From Sulfurimonas sp. HSL3-2 (GTDB lineage Bacteria > Campylobacterota > Campylobacteria > Campylobacterales > Sulfurimonadaceae): DNA of 64,000 nt. Of the stretch, positions 2,524-17,860 are shown one piece after another. The position numbers were made by a program, and so were the translations under genes. The number at the start of each line of letters is the position of its first letter. Positions within the stretch are counted from its first letter, which is position 1. The stretch is taken from positions 1,922,001 through 1,986,000 of the forward strand of contig NZ_CP147917.1 of the NCBI RefSeq assembly GCF_039645965.1, read 5' to 3'. Below the pieces are notes generated by a model. It made no database searches and was not told where the DNA came from. It was given only the letters and a program-made list of their open reading frames with translations.

Positions 2524-3044
2524 TAAAGCTATCGATAATAGTCACGCTATTACTTATCTTAACCGGCTGTTCAAAAGCCCCCACCTACCCATCACACTAT
2601 GTAAAACCGCAACAAACTTCCAAATCTTCAAAACCCGTTTCAAAAGACCCTGTCATCAACAGCCTGCATGCAGAATATAAAAAATGGCATCATACCCCCT
2701 ATAAATACGGCGGAGTATGTCTGGACGGAGTGGATTGTTCTGGACTTGTAAAAGTGATCTATAAAAATGCTTTTGGCGTGGATATCCCGCGAACGACGAA
2801 AGATCAGGTAAAAATAGGTAAAAAGATAAAGTATGCTCAGATAAGACCGGGCGATCTGATATTTTTCAGGACGGGATATAACAAAAGGCATGTAGGCATC
2901 TACTTTGGAGATAACACCTTTTTACATACCTCTAAAAAGTACGGGGTGATCATATCGAGTATAAATAACCCCTATTGGAGGGAAAAGTACTGGATGTGCA
3001 GGCGTGTCCTAAGCACAGCTAGGACATACACCGCAAAATACTAG
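2520..3044 (+). CDS. NlpC/P60 family lipoprotein, putative peptidoglycan endopeptidase
   Basis: The N-terminus is a lipoprotein signal (hydrophobic 3-13, lipobox LTGC with Cys17). An NlpC/P60 cysteine peptidase domain fills residues 48-165, with DCSGLV (Cys73), RHVGIY (His124) and FLHTS (His136) as the likely catalytic residues. Such enzymes cut gamma-D-Glu-diamino acid bonds in stem peptides. The length of 174 residues resembles Spr/MepS-type proteins. It starts inside an ATGA overlap with the preceding gene. Its 3' end overlaps the convergent regulator gene by 36 bp, so the two transcripts are antisense at their tails. Confidence 0.9.
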   Translation: MIKLSIIVTLLLILTGCSKAPTYPSHYVKPQQTSKSSKPVSKDPVINSLHAEYKKWHHTPYKYGGVCLDGVDCSGLVKVIYKNAFGVDIPRTTKDQVKIGKKIKYAQIRPGDLIFFRTGYNKRHVGIYFGDNTFLHTSKKYGVIISSINNPYWREKYWMCRRVLSTARTYTAKY

Positions 3045-3407
3045 ACTTGTCTCAAGCATTTTATAGTGACTTTTTTTTGTCACATCTTCGACAATTTTTT
3101 CTATATCCATCTCAATATCTACGAAGTTGCCGCAGCTATTACATAAGAGGTGCCCGTGAGGAGATTTTACTATCTCAAATTTAGATTTTTGCTGTGGGAC
3201 TTTGACCTCTTTTATAAGTGAAGCTTCACTCATCGCGATTATATTTTTATACATAGTCGCTAACGATATTGACGAGAACTGTTTTTTTATCTCACGATAC
3301 ATCTCGTCAACATTGATATGACCATATAAATCCATCAGTGAAAGTATCCCTAATCGTTGAGGGGTTACTTTTAATCCATGTTCTCTTAATAAGTTTTCAT
3401 AATTCAT
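3009..3407 (-). CDS. Fur-family transcriptional regulator, PerR-like
   Basis: The 132-residue protein has the Fur winged helix (GLKVTPQRLGIL, then SSISLATMYKNI as recognition helix) and a dimerisation domain with HGHLLCNSCG and CGVCPSC, two CxxC pairs for structural zinc. It resembles Campylobacterota PerR more than Fur. The family represses peroxide-defence or iron genes with Fe or Mn as corepressor. A Fur-like box lies 44 bp upstream of its start, which suggests autoregulation. The neighbouring cytochrome c peroxidase gene is a plausible target, though I see no matching box directly in front of it. Confidence 0.88.
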   Translation of the reverse strand: MNYENLLREHGLKVTPQRLGILSLMDLYGHINVDEMYREIKKQFSSISLATMYKNIIAMSEASLIKEVKVPQQKSKFEIVKSPHGHLLCNSCGNFVDIEMDIEKIVEDVTKKSHYKMLETSLVFCGVCPSCA

Positions 3408-3450: not shown

Positions 3451-3465
3451 AAATGATTATCATTT
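3451..3465. promoter_or_regulatory. Fur/PerR-type 7-1-7 inverted repeat
   Basis: AAATGAT-t-ATCATTT is a perfect 7-1-7 inverted repeat of the form recognised by Fur-superfamily dimers. It lies 44 bp upstream of the PerR-like gene and about 140 bp upstream of the divergent EF-hand gene. Autoregulation is the simplest reading. Confidence 0.65.
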
Positions 3466-3545: not shown

Positions 3546-3578
3546 ATTAACATTAAATTAACAGTAATCTGTAATAAT
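3546..3578 (+). promoter_or_regulatory. 11-bp tandem repeat operator plus -10 for the Met-rich EF-hand gene
   Basis: ATTAACATTAA (3546-3556) is followed directly by ATTAACAGTAA (3557-3567), identical at 10 of 11 positions. A -10-like TAATAAT stretch lies at 3572-3578. The TAACA core of the second copy begins 13-14 bp before the -10, the same geometry as at 7778-7808 and 12118-12148. The repeat period of one helical turn is typical of OmpR/PhoB-type regulators. Confidence 0.55.
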
Positions 3579-3603
3579 GTTTAAAACGCTAAAGGAGTTC
3601 AAT

Positions 3604-3999
3604 ATGAAACGTTTTACAATCGCTACATTGTTAATCACTAGTTCCCTTATGGCTGCAATGGGCAATAATATGCCTTCATTTAAAGACTACGACACGAACA
3701 ACGACGGTAAGATAACCCAACAAGAGTTCAATTATGAACACCAACACAGAATGCAAGAAAGAGCGGAGGAAGGCAGGATGATGCGTAATGCACAAAATGC
3801 TCCCGACTTTGCAGATATAGACACAAACGGTGACGGCATCATCAATAGGAATGAGTTCAGAAACCATCAAAAGATGCAGATGCAAAATAAAAATATGAAT
3901 ATGAATAAAAACACCATGGGTAAATGTACAGGTCAGGGTATGAATCAAGGAATGGGTAAATGCACAGGTCAAGGAATGGGTCAAGGTCCAAACAGATAA
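3604..3999 (+). CDS. exported EF-hand protein with Met/Cys-rich repeat tail
   Basis: The start at ATG 3604 follows AAAGGAG and gives a clean signal peptide (residues 1-20, cleavage near MAAMG). Two EF-hand loops are intact: D30-N32-D34-K36-T38-E41 and D73-N75-D77-I79-N81-E84. The tail (residues 91-131) is Met, Asn and Gln-rich and ends in two copies of MGKCTGQGMxQG, encoded by a 36-bp tandem repeat at 3916-3987. Met and Cys clusters suggest soft-metal binding such as Cu(I), while the EF-hands suggest Ca2+. The promoter shares its repeat architecture with the copper genes downstream, which supports a metal-linked role by inference only. Confidence 0.78.
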   Translation: MKRFTIATLLITSSLMAAMGNNMPSFKDYDTNNDGKITQQEFNYEHQHRMQERAEEGRMMRNAQNAPDFADIDTNGDGIINRNEFRNHQKMQMQNKNMNMNKNTMGKCTGQGMNQGMGKCTGQGMGQGPNR

Positions 4000-4069
4000 C
4001 TTTTGTTTAAGTTTGTTACCACTATAATCCCAAACGATAAAAATTATCCATTAAATTCAAGGAGAAAAT

Positions 4070-5083
4070 ATGAAAATTGCCGTACTATTAAGTACCGTGA
4101 CTGCTGTAGCTTTAATGGCTACTCCACTTATGAAAGATGCTAAAAATGCCGGATTAGTGCCTATTCCGGCAAAACAAAAAGAGTTATATAAACTTACAGA
4201 TAATCCAAAAAACCCTATCTCTAAAGCGAAAGTCGAACTTGGAAAAAAACTTTTCTTCGATACAAGACTTTCAAAAAGCGGACTTATCAGCTGTAACACT
4301 TGTCACAACCTCGCAACAGGCGGTGTTGACGGTGTACCTGCGGCAATCGGACATAAATGGACACCAAATCCACACCATTTAAACTCTCCGACTGTTTATA
4401 ATGCGGTATTTTTCAGTTCTCAATTTTGGGACGGACGTTCACCTGATGTCGAAGATCAAGCTCAGGGACCTATCCAGGCAGCTCCTGAGATGGCAGCGAC
4501 TCCTAAACATATAGTCGATGTCGTGACTTCAATGCCTGAGTATGTAAAAGAGTTTAAAAAAGCATACGGAAAAAAACCTATCACTTTTGAACTTGTAGCT
4601 GATACTATCGCAACGTTCGAGCGTACTTTAGTAACGCCAGCGCCTTACGATAAGTTTTTACAAGGCGATGATAAGGCATTGACTGCTACACAAAAAAGAG
4701 GTCTGAAGACTTTTATAGACAAAGGCTGTACGACTTGTCATACAGGTATAGCTTTAGGTGGTGAGATGCAGCCGTTTGGCGTAGTCGCTCCATACAAATA
4801 TGCGCATATCGGTGATTTTAAAGGAAACAAAAATGGACTTGTAAAAGTTCCTACGTTAAGAAACATCACTGAGACTGCTCCATATTTCCATAATGGTGCG
4901 ATCGGGACTTTAAAAGAGGCTATTCAGGAGATGGGACGTATCCAGCTTGGTGTCAAGATCACAGATAAAGAAGCTGCTGATATCGAAGCATTCTTTGGAT
5001 CACTTGAAGGTAAAAAACCTACTATCGTCTATCCAATGCTTCCTGCAGTAACTGCAACTACTCCGAAACCGGATATGAACTAG
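4070..5083 (+). CDS. di-haem cytochrome c peroxidase
   Basis: The 337-residue protein is a periplasmic di-haem peroxidase that reduces H2O2 to water with electrons from cytochrome c. A signal peptide covers about residues 1-18. Two haem c motifs are present, CNTCH at 75-79 and CTTCH at 220-224. Conserved family blocks FFDTRLSKSGLISC, NSPTVYN, FWDGRS and PTLRNITETAPYFHNG are intact. The length matches the bacterial CcpA/MauG family peroxidases. AAGGAG precedes the start. It lies next to a PerR-like regulator, which fits peroxide stress, and is followed by a perfect hairpin terminator. Confidence 0.93.
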   Translation: MKIAVLLSTVTAVALMATPLMKDAKNAGLVPIPAKQKELYKLTDNPKNPISKAKVELGKKLFFDTRLSKSGLISCNTCHNLATGGVDGVPAAIGHKWTPNPHHLNSPTVYNAVFFSSQFWDGRSPDVEDQAQGPIQAAPEMAATPKHIVDVVTSMPEYVKEFKKAYGKKPITFELVADTIATFERTLVTPAPYDKFLQGDDKALTATQKRGLKTFIDKGCTTCHTGIALGGEMQPFGVVAPYKYAHIGDFKGNKNGLVKVPTLRNITETAPYFHNGAIGTLKEAIQEMGRIQLGVKITDKEAADIEAFFGSLEGKKPTIVYPMLPAVTATTPKPDMN

Positions 5084-5100
5084 AGAGATCCTCTCTAGTT
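5078..5100. terminator. bidirectional hairpin terminator
   Basis: A perfect 10-bp stem (5078-5087 and 5091-5100) with a 3-base loop spans the stop codons of the peroxidase gene and the convergent cytochrome b gene. On the plus strand it runs into a short T-tract. Confidence 0.75.
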
Positions 5101-5673
5101 TTTACCGCCGTTTATCATATCTGAGGTGATCCCTTTTTCATCTCTTATATCAGCTGCAACGACTCCGATAATATGTAACGGAACAAAATATAAGACTATC
5201 TGATAAACAGCTTCGTGAAGATCTTTTATCTTCCCCGCAGTCTCTTTAAGCAAACCAAGATCCTGATAAAAATGAATCACAAGACCGCTTACCGTCATAA
5301 AGAAAAGTGTCGCATAGATCACTACGTACCCAGCACTTACAAGTTTATGATGAGTATTCAACTCTTTAAACTGGAAGCTTTTCTTGCCGCTCTGTGTAAA
5401 AAACAGGACAATGCGGTAAATGACTAGAAATGCCAGTGCATACCCTAAGATGATATGCCACTCCCACATAGGTTCACGGATAGCACGTGCTATCGTCTTT
5501 GCCTGATCCAGAGTGATGCTTACATCGATAGCTGAAAGTTTATCGAGGATGACCTGTGCATTTTCTCTGTAGCTTAGAAACCCTTTTCTCAGTAAGACAG
5601 TACCTATAAGTCCCATTACGACAATTGCATTAGCCCAGTGCCATATTCTAAAGTTAATGCTCCATTTTTTCAT
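5095..5673 (-). CDS. cytochrome b561 family protein
   Basis: The 192-residue integral membrane protein has four predicted membrane helices. Conserved histidines suit two b-type haems: His12 in RIWHWANA, His73 in WEWHIILGY, one in the HHKL segment and the last in VPLHIIGV. The layout matches the cytochrome b561/NiFe-hydrogenase b-subunit superfamily, which passes electrons between quinones and periplasmic partners. The electron partner is unknown; the convergent peroxidase is a possible one. Its start overlaps the alr stop (ATGA), so the two are translationally coupled. Confidence 0.85.
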   Translation of the reverse strand: MKKWSINFRIWHWANAIVVMGLIGTVLLRKGFLSYRENAQVILDKLSAIDVSITLDQAKTIARAIREPMWEWHIILGYALAFLVIYRIVLFFTQSGKKSFQFKELNTHHKLVSAGYVVIYATLFFMTVSGLVIHFYQDLGLLKETAGKIKDLHEAVYQIVLYFVPLHIIGVVAADIRDEKGITSDMINGGKN

Positions 5674-6698
5674 ATTACACTCCTTTTGATATAGTATCTC
5701 ATCCCCACTAGTATCTCATAGCCGATCGTATCGCAAGATGCTGCATAACTGTTTGCATTGTCAAAGATACATATATCCTCTTTGTCGCTGTTTATGCTTA
5801 CGTTATCCATTGAGATACGGCCGAGTATCTTAGAGCCGTCCGGCGTAGTAAAGTTATTGGAAGCATTACGGAGAAGTCCGTCTGCATATCCTACATCATA
5901 CGTACTTACTACCATATCTTTGTCTGCTTCGAAGATCCCGCCGTAGCCGATGCGTTCGCCAGTTTTAAACAATCTGCTTGAAAGCTTCGAAGCATAAAGG
6001 GAAAGTACCGGCTGCAGTGCTTCTACACCTACCTCTTTATAGAGGTTGTCATCCGGACTCAGACATCCGTATGCAGCGATCCCGACTCTTACCATATCGT
6101 GCATACACTCTTTAGCACGGAAAAGCGCTGCAGAGTTTTGAGAATGGAAATTCAGTCTTGGGATATTGTATTTCTTTGCAAGACCAAGAGCATGCTCTTT
6201 TAACTGTTTAAAGTTTTTTTCCTGAGTAAACCATTCGCTTGAAAGTTCGTCCGCACTTCTGTGGTGAGTAAATACGCCCTCTACATGTAAGCCTCTTTCG
6301 ATACATAAAAAGAAGGCTTTGTCCAGTTCATAGATACTTACACCGTTACGATGCATCCCGCTGTCAGTCTTGATCTCCACTCTTGTGTTTTTTGGGAACT
6401 TCTCTATTGCTTCTATGCTGTTTACTGTATATACGGCATTTTGAAGAGGAACGTCGGGGATATCCGCAAGGACTAAGATGTACTCAAAAAAATCTCTTGC
6501 TTTTAATGCTTCATCCTGATTTCTAACGACAGCTTTTTTTATGCCGTATTCATGACAAAGCGGAGCCATAAGTGAGAGTCCGTGACCATATGCATTATCT
6601 TTAAGTACCACCGCAATTTTATCTTTTGATGATGTTAATTGTGCGATAATGTCAAGGTTATTAAAAAACGATTTTTTATTGAGGTTTATATGCGCCAT
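5670..6698 (-). CDS. alr: alanine racemase
   Basis: The enzyme interconverts L- and D-alanine for peptidoglycan. The PLP lysine is in VVLKDNAYGHG (Lys33), and the family blocks SGMHRNGV, FHSQNSA, RVGIAAYG, GERIGYGG, DVGYADG and GRISMDN are all present, giving a complete 342-residue enzyme. I chose the start at 6698 because MAHINLNKKSF matches the family N-terminus; the open frame continues to 6785 and the ribosome site is weak. Its first nine bases overlap the first bases of the divergent agmatine deiminase gene, so each gene's promoter must lie inside the other. Confidence 0.92.
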   Translation of the reverse strand: MAHINLNKKSFFNNLDIIAQLTSSKDKIAVVLKDNAYGHGLSLMAPLCHEYGIKKAVVRNQDEALKARDFFEYILVLADIPDVPLQNAVYTVNSIEAIEKFPKNTRVEIKTDSGMHRNGVSIYELDKAFFLCIERGLHVEGVFTHHRSADELSSEWFTQEKNFKQLKEHALGLAKKYNIPRLNFHSQNSAALFRAKECMHDMVRVGIAAYGCLSPDDNLYKEVGVEALQPVLSLYASKLSSRLFKTGERIGYGGIFEADKDMVVSTYDVGYADGLLRNASNNFTTPDGSKILGRISMDNVSINSDKEDICIFDNANSYAASCDTIGYEILVGMRYYIKRSVI

Positions 6699-7703
6699 AC
6701 TGAAATTATATCCCAATGTGGACAAAAAAGATGCTTTCCCGGTGAATTTGAGAAACAAAGTTTTGTCCAAGTTATCTTCCCGCACGAAAAAAGCGACTGG
6801 ATAGATTACCTTGAAGAAGCAAGAAAAAACTTTGTAAACATAGTAAATGCCATAGCAAAATATGAGAGATGTCTGGTAGTCTGTGATGACATCGAGCTAG
6901 TCAAAAGCTACTTTAGCGAGAATGAGAACATAGAGTATGTCCAGTTTGAAACAAACGATACATGGGCGAGAGACTGCAGCGCTATCTCCATCATAGAAAA
7001 CGGCGAAAAGAAGCTTTTGGACTTCACCTTCACGGGATGGGGTTCAAAGTTTGACGCGAGCAAAGACAATGAGATGAGCCGCGCTTTGGCAGCTCATTAT
7101 AAAACACCGATGAAGACGATCGATTTTATTTTAGAAGGCGGTGCGATCGAGAGCAACTCTAAAGGGCTTTTGCTTACTACTTCTATCTGCGTACTCAATA
7201 AAAACAGAAACGCCTCTTACTCCAAAGAGGAGACGACACAGCTTTTAAAAGAGGAACTCGGAGTCAATGAGATACTCTACCTTGACTACGGCTATCTTGC
7301 AGGAGACGATACGGACTCTCATATTGATACATTGGCAAGATTTGTCGATGAAAAGACGATCATGTACCTTAAATGTGACGATCAGGATGATGAGCATTAC
7401 GAACAGCTTTTTAAGATGCAGGAGCAGTTAAAAGAGCTGGCAAAACAGTACGACTTGGATCTTATAGCGCTTCCGTTTACAGATGCGATCTATTATGACG
7501 ACGAAAGACTTCCTGCGACCTATGCCAACTTTCTGATCATCAACGGCGCGGTCATTGTACCGACTTACGGTGTCAGACAGGATGAAGAAGCGTTATCGGT
7601 ATTTAGGGATTTCTTTAAAGACAGAGACGTTGTCGCAGTCGATTGTTCAGTCCTGATCCGTCAACACGGCTCACTTCACTGCGTGACTATGCAGTTTTTA
7701 TAA
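6690..7703 (+). CDS. aguA: agmatine deiminase / peptidyl-arginine deiminase family protein
   Basis: This 337-residue guanidine-group-modifying enzyme should hydrolyse agmatine to N-carbamoylputrescine. Family blocks are WARDCSAI, LDFTFTGWGSKF, LEGGAIE, GDDTDSHIDTLARF and, at the end, HGSLHCVTMQ with the nucleophile Cys331 near the C-terminus. The start at ATG 6690 has GAGG seven bases upstream. Its first nine bases overlap the 5' end of alr on the other strand. Substrate is assigned from family membership alone. Confidence 0.88.
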   Translation: MRHTEIISQCGQKRCFPGEFEKQSFVQVIFPHEKSDWIDYLEEARKNFVNIVNAIAKYERCLVVCDDIELVKSYFSENENIEYVQFETNDTWARDCSAISIIENGEKKLLDFTFTGWGSKFDASKDNEMSRALAAHYKTPMKTIDFILEGGAIESNSKGLLLTTSICVLNKNRNASYSKEETTQLLKEELGVNEILYLDYGYLAGDDTDSHIDTLARFVDEKTIMYLKCDDQDDEHYEQLFKMQEQLKELAKQYDLDLIALPFTDAIYYDDERLPATYANFLIINGAVIVPTYGVRQDEEALSVFRDFFKDRDVVAVDCSVLIRQHGSLHCVTMQFL

Positions 7704-7726
7704 TCCTCTCCAACACTATAATCTAT

Positions 7727-7762
7727 AGGCAGATTGTAAACGCTTTGACGCGGAATCTGCCT
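7727..7762. terminator. 9-bp inverted repeat after the deiminase gene
   Basis: AGGCAGATT (7727-7735) and AATCTGCCT (7754-7762) form a perfect 9-bp inverted repeat around an 18-base loop. It lies 23 bp after the deiminase stop and 16 bp before the receptor operator. There is no T-run, so it could be a factor-dependent terminator or an operator. Confidence 0.4.
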
Positions 7763-7777
7763 GTAAATGCCCATCCT

Positions 7778-7808
7778 TAACACTTTTGTAACACTCTTTT
7801 CCTATTAT
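7778..7808 (+). promoter_or_regulatory. 11-bp tandem repeat operator plus -10 for the copper receptor gene
   Basis: TAACACTTTTG (7778-7788) is followed directly by TAACACTCTTT (7789-7799), identical at 9 of 11 positions. TATTAT at 7803-7808 is the -10 candidate, and the second TAACA starts exactly 14 bp before it. The same arrangement is found in front of the copper efflux operon. Confidence 0.55.
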
Positions 7809-7835
7809 TGTCTATAGAAAAATTGGGAGAGATGA

Positions 7836-9818
7836 ATGAAACTAAACAAATTTATAGTACTTTCTTTTGCATGTGCTACTACATTGTTGGCAGCAGAGGC
7901 TGTACAACTTGATACTATTAATGTCGATGCGACAACACTGAGTGACGTCAGCCACGAGCAGATAAAATCTGCTGACTTAGCGGATGCACTGCAAAAAGCG
8001 GTACCGTCTATCTCTATAAGCCGTCGTAGCGGTATAGCGAACGACATCATTCTAAGAGGAATGAAAAAAGACGATATCAACGTTTTAGTCGACGGGACAA
8101 AGACTTACGGTGCATGTCCAAACAGAATGGACCCGCCTATCTCACACGTACTTGCTAACAATATCGAAAGCATCCGTATCATCGAGGGACCATATGACGT
8201 TGAAAACTTCGGTACTCTAAGCGGTGCAGTCAAAATGGAATCAAAAGCGCCAAGTAAAGATTTTAATGCTGAAGTAAATCTGGGATTTGGTAGTTTCAGT
8301 TATAAGAAAGCTGCTACGACTATCAGCGGAGGAAATGATTTTATCCGTATGATGGTAAGTGCTTCTGCTGAGACAAGTGATCAATATAAAGACGGTAACG
8401 GCGATACTTTCAATGACCAGATGCATAACAAGATAACAGATATGTCAAAATACTATAAGACAGCATATACTGATCTTCAAGCTTACGAAAAAAAGACGTT
8501 AATGGCAAAAGCGTTTATTAACCCGACTGAAAACCAAGAACTTCGTCTTAGCTATACTGCAAACAGAAGTGATGATGTTCTCTATCCATCATCAGGAATG
8601 GATGCACTTTACGACAACTCAAACATCTATGATGTGCAATATGAGATCAAAAAACTTGGTGATTTCTCTAAAAAACTTGTCCTGCAATACTATGCGACAG
8701 ATGTCGACCATCCGATGTCTACAAAATACAGAAATGCTTCCGGCGGTATGATGGGAGAGATGGTAAGTCATCTAACGACCAATACACAAGGTGCAAAGAT
8801 CAAAAATACACTTGATCTGGGAAATTATGAACTTCTTGTGGGAGTTGACGGTAGTAAACGTAACTGGGACGGAAGATACTATAACCATTCTACGACATAC
8901 ATGTTTAAAAGTATTCCTGATGCATATACGAACAATGCAGCTCTGTTTTCAGAGTTAAGTCGTGATTTTGGCGACTTCTCATTCAAAATGGGTGTACGTT
9001 ACGACTCTACTAATATAAAAACTACTGATTATGATACTAATAACTATGATGCTTTCAGTGCAAATATCTTGACAAACTATAAACTAAATGCCAACAATAA
9101 ACTGATCTTCGGCATAGGAAAATCATCTCGTGTTCCTGATGCGAAAGAACTTTTCTTCAAATCTAGTTCAGGTGCAGTAGCAGGTAATCAAGGTCTTGAC
9201 CAAGTAAAAAACTATGAAGCTGATCTTGGACTTGAGAACAACTATGAAAACTTTATATTAAAAACGAAAGCATTTTACTCAAAACTAAAAGATTATATCA
9301 TCTACAATTACCAAAGTTCTACAGCAACAAAATATGAAAATATCGATGCTTCTATCTACGGTCTTTCTGTAAACGGTTCTTACTTTATCTCTGACTCTCT
9401 TACATTAGATGCCGGAGCAAACTATCAAGTAGGTCGTAAAGATACTTTGGCTACAAACCAAACTGACAGAGACCTTCCAAACATCACACCTTTAAAAGGA
9501 AATCTTGCTCTGACTTATGATTATAAGAAAAACTCTTACCTAAAAGCGGAAGTCGTTGCGACTGATGCATGGAGCAAGTATGACAGCGATGATAAAGAGC
9601 AAGCGATAGACGGCTGGTCAGTGTTGAACTTAAAAGCTTCACATGAGATCAATCCTCATGTACAGTTCGACCTTGGTATAGATAACGTATTTAACACAGT
9701 CTATGCGATCAGTAATACATATGCCGATCTTACACTTCTTGACGGAACAGACGGTTCAAGAATGCTTTTAAACGAGCCTGGCCGTTACGTATATACAAAC
9801 TTAACAGTTAAATTCTAA
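7836..9818 (+). CDS. TonB-dependent copper receptor, OprC/NosA type
   Basis: The 660-residue protein has a signal peptide (1-20), a plug domain (about 30-140) and a 22-strand-type barrel ending in ...TNLTVKF with terminal Phe. The plug contains GACPNRMDPP, the hallmark of OprC/NosA copper receptors. The Cu-binding CxxxM pair is Cys94/Met98, and the HxM pair of the same site appears as His292/Met294 in DVDHPM. Family knowledge: OprC takes up copper across the outer membrane and NosA supports nitrous oxide reductase in Pseudomonas. It is followed by a strong hairpin and lies beside a copper efflux operon. Confidence 0.9.
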   Translation: MKLNKFIVLSFACATTLLAAEAVQLDTINVDATTLSDVSHEQIKSADLADALQKAVPSISISRRSGIANDIILRGMKKDDINVLVDGTKTYGACPNRMDPPISHVLANNIESIRIIEGPYDVENFGTLSGAVKMESKAPSKDFNAEVNLGFGSFSYKKAATTISGGNDFIRMMVSASAETSDQYKDGNGDTFNDQMHNKITDMSKYYKTAYTDLQAYEKKTLMAKAFINPTENQELRLSYTANRSDDVLYPSSGMDALYDNSNIYDVQYEIKKLGDFSKKLVLQYYATDVDHPMSTKYRNASGGMMGEMVSHLTTNTQGAKIKNTLDLGNYELLVGVDGSKRNWDGRYYNHSTTYMFKSIPDAYTNNAALFSELSRDFGDFSFKMGVRYDSTNIKTTDYDTNNYDAFSANILTNYKLNANNKLIFGIGKSSRVPDAKELFFKSSSGAVAGNQGLDQVKNYEADLGLENNYENFILKTKAFYSKLKDYIIYNYQSSTATKYENIDASIYGLSVNGSYFISDSLTLDAGANYQVGRKDTLATNQTDRDLPNITPLKGNLALTYDYKKNSYLKAEVVATDAWSKYDSDDKEQAIDGWSVLNLKASHEINPHVQFDLGIDNVFNTVYAISNTYADLTLLDGTDGSRMLLNEPGRYVYTNLTVKF

Positions 9819-9829
9819 TCCACATAATA

Positions 9830-9859
9830 TTCCTTATATGTAGAGATACATATAAGGAA
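9830..9859 (+). terminator. hairpin terminator after the copper receptor gene
   Basis: A perfect 13-bp stem (9830-9842 and 9847-9859) closes a GAGA loop eleven bases after the receptor stop codon. The following T-tract is short. Confidence 0.65.
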
Positions 9860-9910
9860 CTTTAAGCCTCCCTCCTGTAGAATTGACTACCAATTAAAAA
9901 GGATTTACTT

Positions 9911-10120
9911 ATGAAAGCGATGATCAAAGAGTTTGAAAGCAGACGCGGTGAGATAGAAAAAGCATTGGAGCTTTTATTTAAGGTCAATATGAAGATAAGC
10001 GACTGGGATATCCCCGAAGCTGACGATACTGAAGCTGCTACTATCCTTCTGGCAATACTGCAGGAAAAACTCGATACAATCAGAGAAGATGTAAAATCCG
10101 GTAAATTCAAAAACTACTAA
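9911..10120 (+). CDS. small hypothetical protein
   Basis: I do not recognise this 69-residue acidic, largely helical protein. AAAGGA precedes the ATG. It has no signal peptide, Cys or His cluster. It is followed after ten bases by another 69-residue gene, and the pair sits between the copper receptor gene and the two-component system, convergent to the latter. Function is unknown; a copper link would rest on position only. Confidence 0.65.
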   Translation: MKAMIKEFESRRGEIEKALELLFKVNMKISDWDIPEADDTEAATILLAILQEKLDTIREDVKSGKFKNY

Positions 10121-10130
10121 GGAAGATATC

Positions 10131-10340
10131 ATGAGTTCACACAAACACCACGAACATATACAAAAGATAAAAGAGGAAGTACAAAAAGCACCTCATCTAA
10201 GCGAACAGGAAAAATCAGACACTATCAAACGTCTTGAGGAATGGGTCGCTGAAGATAAAGCTGAAGGGCTTTTATATGAAGAACTTTTTGAGATCACACA
10301 AGGGATCAAACCGATCCTGGCAGAACTCGGTCTGCTTTAA
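10131..10340 (+). CDS. small His-rich-N-terminus hypothetical protein
   Basis: The 69-residue soluble protein begins MSSHKHHEHIQ, with four His in the first nine residues, followed by a charged helical region (SEQEKSDTIKRLEEW) and a hydrophobic end. AAGGA lies ten bases before the ATG. The N-terminal His cluster could bind Cu or Zn, but I know no family to confirm this. Its stop is six bases from the convergent histidine kinase gene stop. Confidence 0.65.
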   Translation: MSSHKHHEHIQKIKEEVQKAPHLSEQEKSDTIKRLEEWVAEDKAEGLLYEELFEITQGIKPILAELGLL

Positions 10341-10345
10341 AAAAA

Positions 10346-11461
10346 TTACCAGCTAAGACTAAAGACAGTGCCTTGGTCTAGCTGGGATTCTACCTCTATT
10401 TTTATCCCCGCCTCATCACAGATCTGTTTTACGATGCTAAGACCCACACCAAACCCGCCCGCAAGATCAGAACCTCTTTCATAAAGATCGAATATCTTAT
10501 CCAGTTTCTCTTTTGCAATTCCTGCTCCCTCGTCTTTGATGACAAAGCTGTTTTTCTTCAGAGTCAAAGTTATACTCTTATGCGGCATAGAGTATTTTAC
10601 GGCATTTGAGAGAAGGTTGGAAAAAAGAAGTCTTGCCCTTTCTTCATCTATCTTTATAAATGCATCCTCTACATGTAAGTTGACCATGATCTCTTTTGCA
10701 AGACAAAGTTCAGCGTAAAACTCCACAACCTCCACGACTATCTCTTTTAGATTGATGCTCTGTACCTCTTTTGCTCTTGTGGAGAAACTAAGATAGCAAA
10801 GAGACTGATAGATGGAGTAAAGCTGTTTGGTGCTGATCGAGATATTCTTTAGTATCTTCTCATCGTACACACCCTTTTGCATCGCTCTTTTTGAACTCAT
10901 CTGCAGTGCGGTCACAGGAGTGTTGAGTTCATGCGAGACATCTTGTATGAACTGCTCTATCTGCTGCACTTTTTGATGGATAGGACGCATAAAAAGTCTT
11001 GCCAGTAAAAACGAGATAAGGACTATCAGTAAAAAGATGACGCTCATAACGGATATGACCTCTTTTTTCAGAGATTCTACTTTTTTATGAACTTCATCTG
11101 TTTTAACCACCACATACTTGATATCTAAGTGTTCCTGCGGAGAGGTCGATACCAAGACCGTGTACCCGTTTTCCTGGTAGTAGTTACTCGGGAACTCCCT
11201 CTTTTCATCAGTCCTGACCAGAAAATACTCATACCCCTCTTCTAGTCTAGGAAGTTTTAAGACCGTACTGTGCATCTGTGCATTTATGATAAGTCCGCCG
11301 ATGGTATCGCTGTAGTGCTGCAGTTTATAATACGCCGTGCTCTCAACTGCATTTTTTTGTGCTTTATAGTACCAAAAACCCGACATCGTCAAAAAGAGAA
11401 ACGACGAACCGATGTAGAGTGCCAAAAATGAATAGAACGATCTCTTCTCTAGACTATTCAA
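10346..11461 (-). CDS. sensor histidine kinase of the copper locus
   Basis: The 371-residue kinase has two membrane segments (about 13-32 and 136-157) flanking a roughly 100-residue periplasmic sensor region. The DHp helix carries the phosphorylated His177 in VSHELNTPVTALQ, and the ATPase domain has the N-box NLLSNAVKYS and G-boxes DEGAGIAKEKL and GGFGVGLSIVK. It overlaps the response regulator gene by eight bases. Its location between copper uptake and efflux genes suggests a CusS-like metal sensor, though the sensor region shows no clear Met/His cluster. Confidence 0.9.
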   Translation of the reverse strand: MNSLEKRSFYSFLALYIGSSFLFLTMSGFWYYKAQKNAVESTAYYKLQHYSDTIGGLIINAQMHSTVLKLPRLEEGYEYFLVRTDEKREFPSNYYQENGYTVLVSTSPQEHLDIKYVVVKTDEVHKKVESLKKEVISVMSVIFLLIVLISFLLARLFMRPIHQKVQQIEQFIQDVSHELNTPVTALQMSSKRAMQKGVYDEKILKNISISTKQLYSIYQSLCYLSFSTRAKEVQSINLKEIVVEVVEFYAELCLAKEIMVNLHVEDAFIKIDEERARLLFSNLLSNAVKYSMPHKSITLTLKKNSFVIKDEGAGIAKEKLDKIFDLYERGSDLAGGFGVGLSIVKQICDEAGIKIEVESQLDQGTVFSLSW

Positions 11462-12104
11462 ACCTGTACCCTTCGCCTCTTATATTGATGATATGTTCTT
11501 TGCCCACATATTTTCGAAGCTCTTTTATAAGTGTTCGAATAGCATCGGATGAGGGCAGGTCATCATACTTCCAAAGGTTTTGCAGCATCTCGTCCTGACT
11601 AATAACACGGTTTTTATGCCTGTAGAGATAGAGCAGAAGTTCACTCTCTTTTGCGGTTAGATGAAAAAGATGTTTTGGGGTTTTAAGCACGTGAGTCTGA
11701 GTGTTTAGCTCCATATCATCGCCCAGTGGGACAACAAGGTTCAGCCCAAAATGCTTTTTGATGTTCTCTATGCGTACAGAGAGTTCCTCAAGTTCAAATG
11801 GCTTTCGTATAAAGTCATTGGCTCCCGATGCGAATGCTTTTGTCAGATACTTCGTATCATGAAAAGCCGTTATAAATATGGTCGGAGTCTCATCATAAAA
11901 ACTGCGAAGCTCCCGTAAAAGTGTCAAACCGTCACCGTCAGGGACATTAATATCGAAGATATACAGATCATAGGAGTTCTCTTCACTGAGACTTAACGCT
12001 TCTTTCATACTGTAGGTATGAGTTACATCGTAATACTCCCGCAGATAATCCAACAAAATATCCGATAAGACCGTATCGTCTTCAAGCAGTAAAATTTTCA
12101 TCAT
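11454..12104 (-). CDS. OmpR-family response regulator of the copper locus
   Basis: The 216-residue regulator has a receiver domain with acidic pocket EDD, phospho-acceptor Asp51 in YIFDINVPDGDG, and KPFEL, followed by a winged-helix DNA-binding domain (LTAKESELLLYLYRHK...IRTLIKELRKYVG...RGEGYRFE). A -10 (ATTATA on the plus strand, 12110-12115) ends only five bases before the first ATG and there is no ribosome site, so the mRNA is probably leaderless. The promoter is back-to-back with that of the efflux operon, with a tandem repeat between them. It probably controls the efflux operon. Confidence 0.9.
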   Translation of the reverse strand: MMKILLLEDDTVLSDILLDYLREYYDVTHTYSMKEALSLSEENSYDLYIFDINVPDGDGLTLLRELRSFYDETPTIFITAFHDTKYLTKAFASGANDFIRKPFELEELSVRIENIKKHFGLNLVVPLGDDMELNTQTHVLKTPKHLFHLTAKESELLLYLYRHKNRVISQDEMLQNLWKYDDLPSSDAIRTLIKELRKYVGKEHIINIRGEGYRFE

Positions 12105-12109
12105 CAGGT

Positions 12110-12148
12110 ATTATAACTCACAAACTCCTCACAAACTCTAAATATAAT
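12110..12148. promoter_or_regulatory. divergent promoters sharing an exact 11-bp tandem repeat operator
   Basis: CTCACAAACTC occurs twice in exact tandem (12117-12127, 12128-12138). On one side ATTATA (12110-12115) is the minus-strand -10 of the regulator gene; on the other TATAAT (12143-12148) is the plus-strand -10 of the efflux operon. The repeats take the place of the -35 element of both promoters. Tandem direct repeats with an 11-bp period are the usual target of OmpR/PhoB-family dimers, so this is the likely site of the adjacent regulator. Confidence 0.7.
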
Positions 12149-12172: not shown

Positions 12173-12553
12173 ATGAAAAAACTACTAAAAATATTTACGG
12201 CTCTTGTACTTGGAGTGACACTTCTGCAAGCAGCAGCTTTTGAAAAAACGGCAAAAGGGGGCGGGACAGAGATCATGATCAGTTCTGACAAACCACTTAC
12301 ACCCGGTAACAACAAGCTGCTTATAACCATCAAGGATACAAAATACAAAGATGCAAAAGTAAGTGTAAAAGTGTTTATGCCCGAGATGCCGGGAATGCCG
12401 CGTATGGAAGCAGAAGCCGATGCTACAGCGATGGGAGACGGCATGTATGATGCGGATCTGAACTTCTCTATGAGCGGGACTTGGCAGGTGTGGGTCTACA
12501 TCGCTCCAACTGATGGCAAAAAAGTACGTATTAAAACATCTTTGAATATATAA
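12173..12553 (+). CDS. YtkA/FixH-like periplasmic protein of the copper efflux operon
   Basis: The 126-residue protein has a signal peptide (1-21) and a beta-sandwich domain resembling the YtkA-like family. It carries a Met-rich stretch MPEMPGMPRM and further Met residues in AMGDGMYDADL, suited to Cu(I). It is the first gene of the efflux operon, ten bases before the outer membrane component. Such proteins often accompany heavy-metal RND systems and may deliver metal to the pump, which is inference here. AAAGGA precedes the start. Confidence 0.8.
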   Translation: MKKLLKIFTALVLGVTLLQAAAFEKTAKGGGTEIMISSDKPLTPGNNKLLITIKDTKYKDAKVSVKVFMPEMPGMPRMEAEADATAMGDGMYDADLNFSMSGTWQVWVYIAPTDGKKVRIKTSLNI

Positions 12554-12563
12554 AGAACATACT

Positions 12564-13760
12564 ATGAGAGCGTTTCTGTCTTTACTTTTTCTTGCAGTAC
12601 TACTGTCAGGCGATACTCTTGATAATATCCTAGAGTACAGCCTGAATAATCACGGCTCACTAAAAAGTATACAGGAGAGGCTCTCTGCGATAGAAAATGA
12701 AAAGAGCCGCTCAAGGAACTTTTCAAATCCCGATATCTCCTTTACCGTTAGCGATATACAGTTTGACAACCCTTCTGACCGCACACTCGAACCCATGCAG
12801 TTCAGTGCCGTCAATATCAAGCAGAAGATCCCCTACTTCGGAAAACGCGATGCACTGACGCAGAAGGTCGAGTCTAAAAAAAGATTTTTAGATATGAGTC
12901 TGCAGGACCTCAAGTCTGAGCTTGCAAAAGAGATCAAGATAACGGCCTACTCGCTCTGGGATGTTCAAAAACGGCTTAGTGTCTTGGATTCATACATAGA
13001 CATAACCAACCAGAACATCTCGCTTAACGAAGCGTATAACATCACTTCAAGCAACACGCATCTAGCCCTGATGTCGGCGAAACTCACCCTGAGCGAGTTG
13101 AAGATCAAAAAAAGTTCCCTGCAGACTCTTAGAAACTCTCTTTATGAAAAGCTTTCATATCTTGCAGGCAAAAAGATCGAGACACTCGAACTCTCTTTAA
13201 GTGTGGATGAACCGCAGAGTCTGGCATTTTACGAGGACAAAGTCACAGCTTCTAGCGCTTTACATGTAAAAGAGGCTGAAGTGCAGATGCAAAAAGCGGA
13301 TCTTCATATACAAGAGCTCTCCGGTAAGATAGACCCATACATCCAAGCGGGATACTACTACAGAGAAAACCATCCCGACTATGCGACCGTGACCATCGGT
13401 GCATCTCTGCCGCTTTACGGAAGCGAAAAAGAGAGCCAAGAGGAGGCAAGAAAACTACTTCTTGCAAAGAGTTTAGAACAGAACGATCTAAAAGCGAAGT
13501 TGAGCTCCAACATCGCACAGCTTTATGAAAATATGCAAAACGATTACAAGGTGTATAGGATCATAACAGAGGAGTCCATGCCGCAGATCGAACATCTTTT
13601 TGAGCTGGTCGATAGTTCCGTCAAAAGCGGAGACACGCTTTTTGAATACATCGATATGCTTAACAAAAAGCTCAAACTCGAAGAGCAACTTATCCAAGTG
13701 ACAGCCGAGTATAACAAAACAAAAGCATCGCTTGATGCACTTACAGGAGAAAAACTATGA
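12564..13760 (+). CDS. outer membrane efflux protein, TolC/CusC family
   Basis: The 398-residue protein has a short signal peptide (1-16) and two long TolC-type repeats rich in heptad Leu and Lys/Glu, including FSNPDISFTV and QKIPYFGKRDAL. It should form the outer membrane and periplasmic channel of a tripartite pump. Its stop overlaps the start of the membrane fusion protein gene by four bases. The first domain is compact and no lipobox Cys is visible, unlike E. coli CusC. Confidence 0.88.
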   Translation: MRAFLSLLFLAVLLSGDTLDNILEYSLNNHGSLKSIQERLSAIENEKSRSRNFSNPDISFTVSDIQFDNPSDRTLEPMQFSAVNIKQKIPYFGKRDALTQKVESKKRFLDMSLQDLKSELAKEIKITAYSLWDVQKRLSVLDSYIDITNQNISLNEAYNITSSNTHLALMSAKLTLSELKIKKSSLQTLRNSLYEKLSYLAGKKIETLELSLSVDEPQSLAFYEDKVTASSALHVKEAEVQMQKADLHIQELSGKIDPYIQAGYYYRENHPDYATVTIGASLPLYGSEKESQEEARKLLLAKSLEQNDLKAKLSSNIAQLYENMQNDYKVYRIITEESMPQIEHLFELVDSSVKSGDTLFEYIDMLNKKLKLEEQLIQVTAEYNKTKASLDALTGEKL

Positions 13761-14743
13761 AACTTTTAACGATTTTACTGCTTTTACATGTAATCTTGTT
13801 TTCTAAAGACGCAACGGTAGAACAGCTCTTTAACGTGCAAACCGTAAAGGTAAAGAAAGTAGAGAGTTCACAGAGCAAAAAATACTACGGCTATGTCAAA
13901 GCAAATGAAGCAAATGTCTACGACGTATCTCCGAGATTCGGTGGCTACATCGAAGAACTTAAAGCAGACAAACTCTACATGTATGTCAAAAAAGGCGCTC
14001 TTTTGGCAACCGTCTACTCACCCGAGGTCCTGCGTGCAAAAGAGGAGTACCTAAACACTTTAAAATACACGCAAAAGATCCCGAATAAAGCTATGCTTGA
14101 GAGTGCAAGAGAGAAACTTCTACTTTTAGGCCTTTCGGCTCAGGAAGTAGACGAGATAAAAGTCGATTGCAAAGTATTACGCTACACAAATATCTACGCT
14201 CCCGCAAGCGGCTACATCTTTCTAAAAAACGTCGCAAACGGCTCAGCCTTTTCTATGAAACAAAAACTGTTTACTATCGTAGATCTGGATGATGTCTGGA
14301 TAGAGACTTCGATCATGCCTCAGGATATCGCTCTTATCTCCAAGTTTACGGATTTTCGCATAAGCTCTCCCGTAGGAGATTTTGAAGCCAAAAAAGAGCA
14401 GTTGTATCCAAAGCTGAGCCAAAAAGACGCCCTCTTGACCTTGCGACTCGATGTCAAAAACAAAGCAGATGCCCTGCTTCCAAATATGTATGTGAGCGTT
14501 ACGGCAAAGATGACAAAAGAGAGCTATCTCACGCTTCCCTCTACTGCCGTCATCTTTAAAAACGCAAAACATTACGTGTTTATAAAAGGGGAGTATGAGG
14601 GAGAGTATGAACCAAAAGCGGTGGATGCAAAAGAACTCGATGCGCATACATACAGAGTCCAAGGTCTGAACGAAGGCGATGAAGTCGTAAACAACGCACT
14701 CTTTATGATGGACAGCGACGCACAGATAAACGGGCTGTATTAG
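13757..14743 (+). CDS. membrane fusion protein, CusB-like
   Basis: The 328-residue periplasmic adaptor has a signal peptide (1-17), then the barrel-sandwich/lipoyl half-motifs around YDVSPRFGGYIEEL and IYAPASGYIFLKNVANGS, a short alpha-hairpin, and a beta-barrel domain with VWIETSIMPQD and PNMYVSVTAK. It should link the outer membrane channel to the RND pump. It is shorter than E. coli CusB and lacks an obvious N-terminal Met-rich metal-transfer segment; the YtkA-like protein may take that role (inference). Confidence 0.9.
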   Translation: MKLLTILLLLHVILFSKDATVEQLFNVQTVKVKKVESSQSKKYYGYVKANEANVYDVSPRFGGYIEELKADKLYMYVKKGALLATVYSPEVLRAKEEYLNTLKYTQKIPNKAMLESAREKLLLLGLSAQEVDEIKVDCKVLRYTNIYAPASGYIFLKNVANGSAFSMKQKLFTIVDLDDVWIETSIMPQDIALISKFTDFRISSPVGDFEAKKEQLYPKLSQKDALLTLRLDVKNKADALLPNMYVSVTAKMTKESYLTLPSTAVIFKNAKHYVFIKGEYEGEYEPKAVDAKELDAHTYRVQGLNEGDEVVNNALFMMDSDAQINGLY

Positions 14744-14749
14744 GAGTCT

Positions 14750-17700
14750 ATGATGATAGAAAAGCTGATAGAACTAAGTGTAAAAAACAGATTTCTGCTC
14801 CTTGTCTTTACGCTCGTGCTCATAGGAGGTTCTATCTGGTCAATGAGAAACACTTCACTTGACGCACTTCCCGACATCTCACCTCCACAGGTGATCCTGC
14901 AGGTAAAATGGGCGGGACAGTCACCCGATATCATAGACCAGCAGGGAACGTATCCTCTTATCACCGCACTTCTCTCGACTCCGAACGTCAAGACCGTAAG
15001 AGGTTTTTCAAGCTATGAAAATGCCCTTATCTACATCATCTTTAAAGAGGGAAGCGACATCTATGAAGCCAGAAGCAGAGTCCTCGAACAGCTCTCATCC
15101 ATAGGCTCGACTCTGCCAAAAGAGATGCACGTCTCTCTAGGACCAGATGCAAGCGGTGTGGGCTGGGTGTATGAGTACGCGCTCTCCTCCAAGACAAAAA
15201 ATCTTTCAGAGCTCCGTACTCTGCAGGATTACTACTACAAAAATGCTCTTTTAGGCGTAGACGGCGTGAGTGAAGTCGCGACCATCGGCGGATTTGTACC
15301 TACATATCAGGTAAGCATAAAGAACGATATGCTCGTACGCTATGACCTCGGCATACAAGATATCGCAAAGACACTCAGACAGAACAACGACAACACGGGC
15401 GGACGCATCGTCGTCAAAAACGGCTATGAATGGATGGTGCAAGCAAAAGGGTATGTCCATAATCTCGATGAGATAAGAGATCTCGTCATCACGACTAAAA
15501 ACGGTACGCCGCTGACTCTCGGCGATATAGCCAGAGTTGAGAAAGTTCCAGCAGGCAGACGCGGTATGGCTGACCTTAACGGTGATGGCGAAGTCGTCGG
15601 CGGGATAGTGATAGTCAGATACGGTGCAGATGTCTACAAGACCATACAAAACGTAAAGAAAAGACTCTCACAGCTCAAAGTTGCTGATGTAAACATAACG
15701 ACTACCTATGACAGATCAAGCCTGATAGACAAAGCCGTAGACACACTCAAAGACACGCTTTTTGAAGAGTCAGTTATAGTCATCATCGTTATCGCACTCT
15801 TTTTAATGCATCTAAGAAGTTCGCTTATCGTACTTATCATCCTGCCTATCACTATCGGTATGACCTTTTTACTGATGAAACTTTTTGGCATAGGTTCAAA
15901 CATCATGAGTCTAGGAGGTATCGCCATAGCCATCGGAGCGATGGTCGATGCGTCCATTATCATGATAGAAAACGCGCACCAGACACTTCACAAGTTACAA
16001 GAAAAGGGCGAGATCACAAAAAAAGTGAGGATCGATGCCATCATCAGCTCCTCTCAGCTCGTCGGACGCCCCATCTTTTTTGCACTCGTCTTAGTCGTCG
16101 TCTCTTTTCTCCCTATCTTTTCTTTGAGCGGGCAAGAGGGGATGCTCTTCTCGCCTTTGGCGTTTACCAAGACCTTTGCCATGAGTGCGGGAGCGATACT
16201 CTCCATCACTCTTGTACCCGTATTGATGATCTATTTTCTAGGAGGCAAGATACCTTCGGAAGAGAAAAATCTTTTAAGCAGGTTTTTCACATTTGTTTAC
16301 CGACCGCTTCTGATATATGGACTCAGGTTCAAATATATAGTCCTGATCCTGCTTTTTGCATCATTGGCATATATGTACCCTCTTTACAGATCTCTAAAAT
16401 GGGAGTTTATGCCCACACTCAATGAAGAGACCTTTATGTATATGCCCGTCACCCCTTACGGAACCAGTATCGATATGAGCAAAGAGCTGACGCAGAGAAC
16501 GGACAAGATACTTAAAAGTTTCCCCGAAGTGGACACCGTCTTTGGAAAAGGGGGACGTGCAGATACTGCGACCGACCCTGCTCCGCTAGGAATGTTTGAG
16601 ACCATCATCACTTTTAAACCGCAATCACAGTGGCGCGAAGGGATGACATACAAAAAGCTTCAGGACGAGATGGAAAGTGCCTTACATGTAAACGGACTTG
16701 TAAACTCCTGGACATATCCCATAAAAGGGCGCATCGATATGCTTCTAAGCGGAATCCGCACACCCATCGGGATAAAACTCTACGGCGACGATATAAAAAA
16801 ACTGCAGTTTTATGCAGGGCAGATAGAGCAGAAACTAAAAGCTGATCCCATGACGATGTCTGTCTTTGCGGACAAGACCACTGCGGGATACTACTTAAAT
16901 ATAGATATAAACGAAGAAGCACTCAAAAGATACGGTATGACAAAAGAGACTCTGCTAAACTACACTTCACTTGCCATAGGCGGTGCAAAGATATCGACTA
17001 TGTACAAAGGGCTCGAGCGCTATGCCATCACTATGAGGCTTGAGGACGATGAGAGAGATTCGATAAATGCTATCAAAAACATCATAATAAAGACGCCTCT
17101 TGGTTTTGTGCCTCTTTCGACTTTTGCGGATGTCGCATACAAAGAGAGCCCCTCTATCATCAAAAGCGAGATGGCGATGCCTGTCACCTACGTCTATATC
17201 ACGCCAAAAGACGGAGTAAGCTCATCCGAATATAAAACGATGGCAAAGAAACTCTTAAAAGATATCAAACTCCCCGATGGCTACTACACCGAATTTGCAG
17301 GAGAGAGCGAGTATCTAGAATCGGCAATGGCGAAGATAGTGTGGATAGTCCCGGCGGTCACTCTTATCGTGCTTCTGCTTATCTACTTTGCACTTAGAGA
17401 CCTTATAGCATCGCTTATCGTGTTTTTTACGCTTCCGTTTGCACTTTTGGGCGGACTTATCTTTATGGATCTGCTGAACTTTAGTATGAGCATAGCTGTT
17501 ATCGTAGGATTTTTAGCACTTCTCGGGATCGCATCGGAGTCTGCTATAGTGATGATCGTCTATCTGCAGCAAAGTGTCAAAAACTCTTTACAGAAGTATG
17601 AAGAGAGTTTTGATGCGGGTAATCTCAAAGACGCCATCTATGACGGAGCTATCCGACGTCTTAGACCTAAGCTTATGACTGTATTTGCCATTATCGCAGG

Positions 17701-17860
17701 GCTTTTGCCCATCATGTATTCTAACGGTGTGGGGAGTGAGATCATGCAGCGCATCGCCGCACCTATGATCGGAGGAATAGTGACATCTTCACTGCTGAGT
17801 CTGGTCATCATCCCCATACTCTTTGAGATATATATAAAAAGGAAATATCTAAGAAGATAG
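14750..17860 (+). CDS. cusA: heavy-metal RND efflux pump, CusA-type (Cu(I)/Ag(I))
   Basis: The 1036-residue pump is full length for the HME-RND family, with twelve predicted membrane helices. The proton-relay segment GGIAIAIGAMVDASIIMIEN in TM4 is intact. Three methionines match the Cu(I) site of E. coli CusA (M573, M623, M672): Met565 in MYMP, Met615 in PLGM and Met664 in GRIDML, each shifted by exactly eight. This makes monovalent Cu/Ag a far better prediction than Co/Zn/Cd. AGGAG precedes two successive ATGs (14750, 14753). The gene ends in a strong hairpin. Confidence 0.94.
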   Translation: MMIEKLIELSVKNRFLLLVFTLVLIGGSIWSMRNTSLDALPDISPPQVILQVKWAGQSPDIIDQQGTYPLITALLSTPNVKTVRGFSSYENALIYIIFKEGSDIYEARSRVLEQLSSIGSTLPKEMHVSLGPDASGVGWVYEYALSSKTKNLSELRTLQDYYYKNALLGVDGVSEVATIGGFVPTYQVSIKNDMLVRYDLGIQDIAKTLRQNNDNTGGRIVVKNGYEWMVQAKGYVHNLDEIRDLVITTKNGTPLTLGDIARVEKVPAGRRGMADLNGDGEVVGGIVIVRYGADVYKTIQNVKKRLSQLKVADVNITTTYDRSSLIDKAVDTLKDTLFEESVIVIIVIALFLMHLRSSLIVLIILPITIGMTFLLMKLFGIGSNIMSLGGIAIAIGAMVDASIIMIENAHQTLHKLQEKGEITKKVRIDAIISSSQLVGRPIFFALVLVVVSFLPIFSLSGQEGMLFSPLAFTKTFAMSAGAILSITLVPVLMIYFLGGKIPSEEKNLLSRFFTFVYRPLLIYGLRFKYIVLILLFASLAYMYPLYRSLKWEFMPTLNEETFMYMPVTPYGTSIDMSKELTQRTDKILKSFPEVDTVFGKGGRADTATDPAPLGMFETIITFKPQSQWREGMTYKKLQDEMESALHVNGLVNSWTYPIKGRIDMLLSGIRTPIGIKLYGDDIKKLQFYAGQIEQKLKADPMTMSVFADKTTAGYYLNIDINEEALKRYGMTKETLLNYTSLAIGGAKISTMYKGLERYAITMRLEDDERDSINAIKNIIIKTPLGFVPLSTFADVAYKESPSIIKSEMAMPVTYVYITPKDGVSSSEYKTMAKKLLKDIKLPDGYYTEFAGESEYLESAMAKIVWIVPAVTLIVLLLIYFALRDLIASLIVFFTLPFALLGGLIFMDLLNFSMSIAVIVGFLALLGIASESAIVMIVYLQQSVKNSLQKYEESFDAGNLKDAIYDGAIRRLRPKLMTVFAIIAGLLPIMYSNGVGSEIMQRIAAPMIGGIVTSSLLSLVIIPILFEIYIKRKYLRR

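Follow-up and report, generated by a model that had tools for sequence, protein, structure and literature searches.

Three promoters in the analysed window, a 64-kb stretch of the genome of the marine sulfur bacterium Sulfurimonas sp. HSL3-2 (NZ_CP147917.1, positions 1,922,001–1,986,000), share one architecture, an OmpR/PhoB-type tandem operator that takes the place of the -35 element. They precede a copper efflux operon, the gene of an OprC-like TonB-dependent copper receptor and the gene of an exported EF-hand protein; coordinates are those of the window unless called genome positions. The explanation that we favour, with good confidence as a whole, is that one layout (a tandem 11-bp repeat for the -35, with 14 nt from the start of the second copy to the -10) would carry three operator sequences, as parallel two-component systems would share a promoter layout and differ in their half-sites. 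A CrdR-like regulator would bind TCACAAACNCCTCACA (operator A), switching on copper export and tolerance genes, and the OprC-like receptor would be controlled through TAACACTNNTGTAACACT (operator B) by another two-component system, for which the best candidate is the regulator-kinase pair that precedes exbB-exbD in the genome (427,030–428.5 kb). The EF-hand promoter would carry a third, looser element, TTAAN-N6-TTAAN (operator C), possibly a site for the CosR/HP1043 orthologue.

The repeats have an exact 11-bp period and are found at 3548/3559 (TAACA, EF-hand gene), 7778/7789 (TAACA, receptor gene) and 12118/12129 (TCACA, efflux operon), where an earlier note on this DNA had placed them. The spacing to the -10 that it gave, 14 bp (13–14 for the EF-hand promoter), is also correct. 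The second copy begins 14 nt before TATTAT (7803–7808, forward strand) at the receptor promoter and before TATAAT (12143–12148, forward strand) at the efflux promoter; the EF-hand promoter has a weak -10 (TAATAAT, 3572–3578, forward strand), 13 nt away if read as TAATAA at 3572 or 14 nt if read as AATAAT at 3573. The pattern is rarer in random sequence. The three sites are the sole N6 matches to T[AC]ACA-N6-T[AC]ACA in the window, where 0.66 matches would be expected on average under a first-order Markov model of its sequence (P of three or more = 0.025), falling to 0.065 when a -10 is required as well. The 2.24-Mb host genome, explored by pattern scans and selected stretches, contains 33 matches against 21 for the same pattern read backwards, which is the control for the motif scans, and T[AC]ACA lumps together at least two operators held strictly apart in relatives. 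In 10 of the 33, TANNNT lies exactly 14 nt from the start of the second copy, with approximately one expected (P from 1e-8 to 7e-6, according to the assumed A+T content), and offset 14 is the peak among the 30 matches for which the context was read (8 matches, the next offset having 4). Ten against approximately one makes the layout a genuine promoter feature that extends beyond these three promoters. OmpR/PhoB-family dimers bind 11-bp tandem repeats at the -35 region and can bring about class-II activation from there. The operator type named by the earlier note, expected next to the -35, is supported, with the repeat standing in place of the -35. Since the repeats lie at about -37 to -22 and a separate -35 is absent, established knowledge of the OmpR family suggests that such dimers may act at the three promoters as class-II activators rather than as repressors.

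Operator A (TCACAAACTCCTCACA, 12118–12133, forward strand) precedes the efflux operon, beside a CrdRS-like two-component system. The CrdR-like OmpR-family response regulator (11454–12104, reverse strand) contains the PF00072 receiver and PF00486 (Trans_reg_C) domains, both above cut-off, and its gene is overlapped by that of a CrdS-like sensor histidine kinase (10346–11461, reverse strand) with HisKA and HATPase_c domains; no CrdR model is among the NCBIfam matches listed. The operon, on the forward strand, encodes a CrdA-like exported protein of the YtkA family with the Met motif FMPEMPGMPRM (12173–12553; PF13115 and family alignment), an outer-membrane efflux component in the CrdB position (12564–13760; weak IhpA match and gene order), a CusB/HlyD-type membrane fusion protein (13757–14743; PF16576) and a CusA/CzcA heavy-metal RND transporter (14750–17860; 972 bits with TIGR00914, exceeding the curated cut-off). 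This is the gene order required of a CrdRS-CrdAB-CzcBA system, and PF13115, PF16576 and TIGR00914 agree with it. Among the 151 genomes of the family Sulfurimonadaceae used for comparison, at least 45 encode orthologues of the regulator (E <= 1e-70), and the 16-mer TCACAAACTCCTCACA is unchanged beside CrdR orthologues at six loci spanning several genera. The arrangement CACA-N7-CACA-N9-TANNNT is present at 60 of 79 crdA promoters (shuffled mean 0.01), drawn from named genomes of mainly Sulfurimonas and also Sulfuricurvum, Arcobacter and Hydrogenimonas, with TA-A-T kept at the same offset in relatives; none of the 79 has the CACA repeat at gaps of 6 or 8 (10- or 12-bp period). A near-identical site, TCACAAACACCTCACA, precedes a gene for a 70-aa SHOCT protein at genome position 2,012,072, and the remaining targets of A-type sites serve copper tolerance (CusA, Cu P-type ATPase, multicopper oxidase, DUF302). 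The CrdR-like regulator is therefore the likely regulator of the adjoining efflux operon, and this part of the control that the earlier note assigned to it stands, while its extension to the receptor and EF-hand promoters does not. One contig (G006 C94:45500-60452) holds seven A-type sites in 15 kb; they precede crdA, DUF302 and a number of genes for exported proteins. In genus g2, TCACAATCACTTCACA is found at three loci (L153 519, L154 495, L155 16831) before a small cytochrome c gene and beside another kinase-regulator pair; judged from these sites, the TCACA-N6-TCACA half-site is not exclusive to CrdR and is common to a further, putative regulator.

The receptor (7836–9818, forward strand) has OprC as its best solved relatives (6fok and others, E 3.5e-33) and, when aligned with 6fok, exhibits the OprC copper-site motifs CxxxM (GACPNRMD) and HxM (DHPM). 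It shares its predicted fold and these motifs with OprC of Pseudomonas aeruginosa, from which it differs in regulation; its score against the TIGR01778 equivalog (212.5 bits) is far below the cut-off of 472.45, and it is hence named OprC-like. Operator B (TAACACTTTTGTAACACT, 7778–7795, forward strand) has the general form TAACACTNNTGTAACACT, kept at 24–27 of the 30 OprC-like receptor promoters compared: 24 carry TAACA-N6-TAACA and 27 TAAC at the same period; none of the 30 has TCACA or a mixed form at this spacing. The offset to the -10 is kept in 25, and the consensus of the set is TTAACACTNNTGTAACACT-N7-TANNNT. A search for TAACACTN4TAACAN9TANNNT matches 115 of the 151 family genomes (backward control, 3 matches), and B with an NNTG spacer is found in 30 of 51 family genomes compared to 2 of 346 other Campylobacterota (backward control, 0). 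The targets of B are TonB receptors, ExbB/TonB-linked operons, and NosL, PepSY_TM and DUF2202 proteins; it also precedes DsbD_2 genes beside cbb3 oxidase genes. PepSY_TM and TonB-ExbBD genes accompany CrtA-family copper receptors too (PMC12914433). An exact match at genome position 2,118,492 has no same-strand gene downstream and is possibly due to chance. Variants of the form TTAACA-N5-TTAACA, mostly with an NNAAAT spacer, are present at genome positions 664216, 992004, 1000514, 1387537 and 2050290, before TonB receptor, ExbB, TolC-MacAB-like and cytochrome genes and a DsbD_2 gene ahead of cbb3 oxidase genes.

The EF-hand protein (3604–3999, forward strand; PF00036) is exported, has a Met/Cys-containing tail and exhibits homologues in 40 of the 151 family genomes. 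Operator C (TTAACATTAAATTAACA, 3547–3563, forward strand) aligns with relatives only as TTAAN-N6-TTAAN, which is in the same place in most of 17 aligned homologue promoters, and the TAACA form is absent at this promoter in relatives, same-genus ones included. HP1043/HsrA, named CosR in Campylobacter, binds two hexamers 11 bp (one helical turn) apart over the -35 in an activator position, ttTAAG-5bp-tTTAAg (PMC5253667, PMC8345958). The EF-hand element resembles this operator, with TTAAN-N6-TTAAN kept in relatives but not the G, whereas the half-sites of A (CACA) and B (TAACACT) are different. The host genome encodes a putative HP1043/CosR orthologue at genome position 1,841,842. That it acts on operator C is a doubtful but conceivable assignment.

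The earlier note had proposed that the one regulator at 11454–12104 controls import, export and a secreted metal-binding protein, which would require that it recognise a relaxed T[AC]ACA half-site at each of the three promoters. The identical period and the same -10 offset at all three promoters, their location within 9 kb and the control of the copper genes of H. pylori by CrdRS speak for this proposal, yet we consider it very improbable. In the promoters compared, no exchange of A for B or of B for A is seen at orthologous positions: most receptor promoters keep B and none has TCACA, and operator B is found at none of the 79 crdA promoters. The EF-hand promoters of relatives show only TTAAN-N6-TTAAN. 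Strict A (TCACAAACNNYTCACA) occurs in at least 27 of the family genomes, at least 24 of them with a CrdR orthologue (Fisher P 1.4e-12), while B shows no association with CrdR (P 0.15), and 77 of the 106 genomes with no close CrdR have B, all counts being lower bounds from the matches listed. None of the 150 listed B sites is at the head of CrdR on the same strand, and in 20 genomes B heads the operon of another regulator. The recognition helices, invariant within the CrdR, exbB-linked and L047-type regulator groups, differ between them at several positions, with R-T-L/I-I/V-K in CrdR and R-V-Y-I-N-R in the exbB-linked group; an activator that raised copper import and export together would also seem self-defeating. 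Weighing on the other side are 21 CrdR genomes with no strict A match among those listed, three A genomes without a detected CrdR, and one genome (G055) in which a B site lies beside a CrdR orthologue on the opposite strand. We are nevertheless confident in assigning A and B to different regulators, with CrdR predicted to act on A. Given three different switch sequences in approximately 150 relatives, the export of copper and its import probably each have a sensor of their own. For the EF-hand promoter, the repeat may instead be a chance occurrence in A+T-rich DNA, with the gene governed by the divergent Fur/PerR-type regulator encoded ahead of it (3009–3407). This falls only a little short of an even chance: the TAACA form is not kept, a Fur/PerR-box-like AAATGATTATCATTT lies between the two genes at 3451–3465, and the downstream peroxidase gene (4070–5083) has its own promoter with GATAAAAATTATC at 4036–4048, just past its -10, an element type that recurs upstream of peroxidase orthologues. 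Against chance stands the retention of TTAAN-N6-TTAAN in place at most homologue promoters. The peroxidase gene itself was rejected as what the repeat at 3548 truly serves, since the promoters of peroxidase orthologues are Fur-box-like and show no repeat.

The assignment of operator B to the exbB-linked regulator, whose host copy at genome position 427,030–427,686 is outside the window, is at even odds in our judgement; the binding is predicted from adjacency and correlation. Twenty of the 150 listed B sites, in 20 genomes, lie 1.1–3.4 kb upstream of an orthologue of this regulator on the same strand, in the gene order (tonB)-pgm-pyrC-RR-HK-exbB-exbD (RR, response regulator; HK, histidine kinase). 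All 20 have the spacer NNTG, though the search pattern left the spacer free, and the receptor site has this same spacer. Several findings weigh against the assignment: a single genus accounts for 19 of the 20 adjacent sites, the host's own exbB-linked regulator operon has no B site, and a B site is present in two nearly complete genomes (G067, G118) that yield no match to the regulator at E <= 1e-45. The regulator is moreover near-universal in the family, so its co-occurrence with B is uninformative about a link. The receptor operator could be read by an L047-type regulator or another OmpR-family member, which we hold to be possible, at clearly less than even probability. The host genome encodes 17 Trans_reg_C genes, four further B-type sites head L047-type regulator operons, and a B-type site in one genome (G058) also abuts a third regulator. 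The L047-type sites, however, carry the spacer YYAC (4/4) in place of the NNTG of the receptor, and the L047-type regulator was rejected for the receptor site on this ground. In genus g7 (three genomes) a kinase-regulator pair lies immediately ahead of the receptor gene; it was likewise rejected, with no orthologue in the host genome and a best match of 41% identity. Our preferred candidate for B is the exbB-linked pair.

The system is of a known kind, and its layout is real and well conserved. CrdRS/CrdAB-CzcBA of H. pylori is a two-component system with an OmpR-family regulator that provides copper tolerance (PMC9696931, PMC9182242). Its genes for secreted CrdA with Met motifs, the outer-membrane component, the fusion protein and the RND transporter come in the same order, and it differs in that the regulator genes of HSL3-2 are adjacent to and divergent from the operon; the open literature searched gave no operator sequence for H. 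pylori CrdR with which operator A could be compared. PceP of Sulfurospirillum is another OmpR-family regulator of Campylobacterota whose binding sites are short direct repeats that cover the -35 (PMC7755780), differing in its CTATW repeats, 17-bp gap and role in organohalide respiration. Operator B and its candidate regulator are not described in the open papers searched, a search that most subscription papers fell outside. The DccR operator of Campylobacter jejuni is WTTCAC-N6-TTCACW. This 11-bp direct repeat of TTCAC is very near operator A, though the reported DccR targets are colonisation-related periplasmic and membrane proteins and those of A are in copper efflux. Elsewhere in the window, 316–651 encodes a short Cys-rich protein that is exported and contains a KCGxxKCG-like motif; at 18.8 bits it falls narrowly short of the cut-off of 19.5 for the HvfA-type RiPP metallophore model.

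The one-regulator guess gives way to two operators, for which the genome of any family member can be searched, and to two named candidate regulators, with copper as the predicted signal from the nature of the targets. Tentatively, and at somewhat less than even confidence, the Sulfurimonadaceae may possess a family-wide copper-acquisition regulon in which a two-component system encoded with ExbB/ExbD/TonB acts through TAACACTNNTGTAACACT on its own operon, on OprC-like and other TonB receptors and on DsbD_2/NosL copper-handling genes. Paralogous regulators, whose recognition helices and half-sites would have changed in step, would keep it separate from the CrdR efflux regulon. If true, paralogous OmpR-type regulators on one promoter layout would lend themselves naturally to the study of divergence in half-site specificity, and copper uptake in these sulfur oxidisers would have a dedicated sensor, tied to TonB energisation, as the opposite number of the known sensor for efflux.

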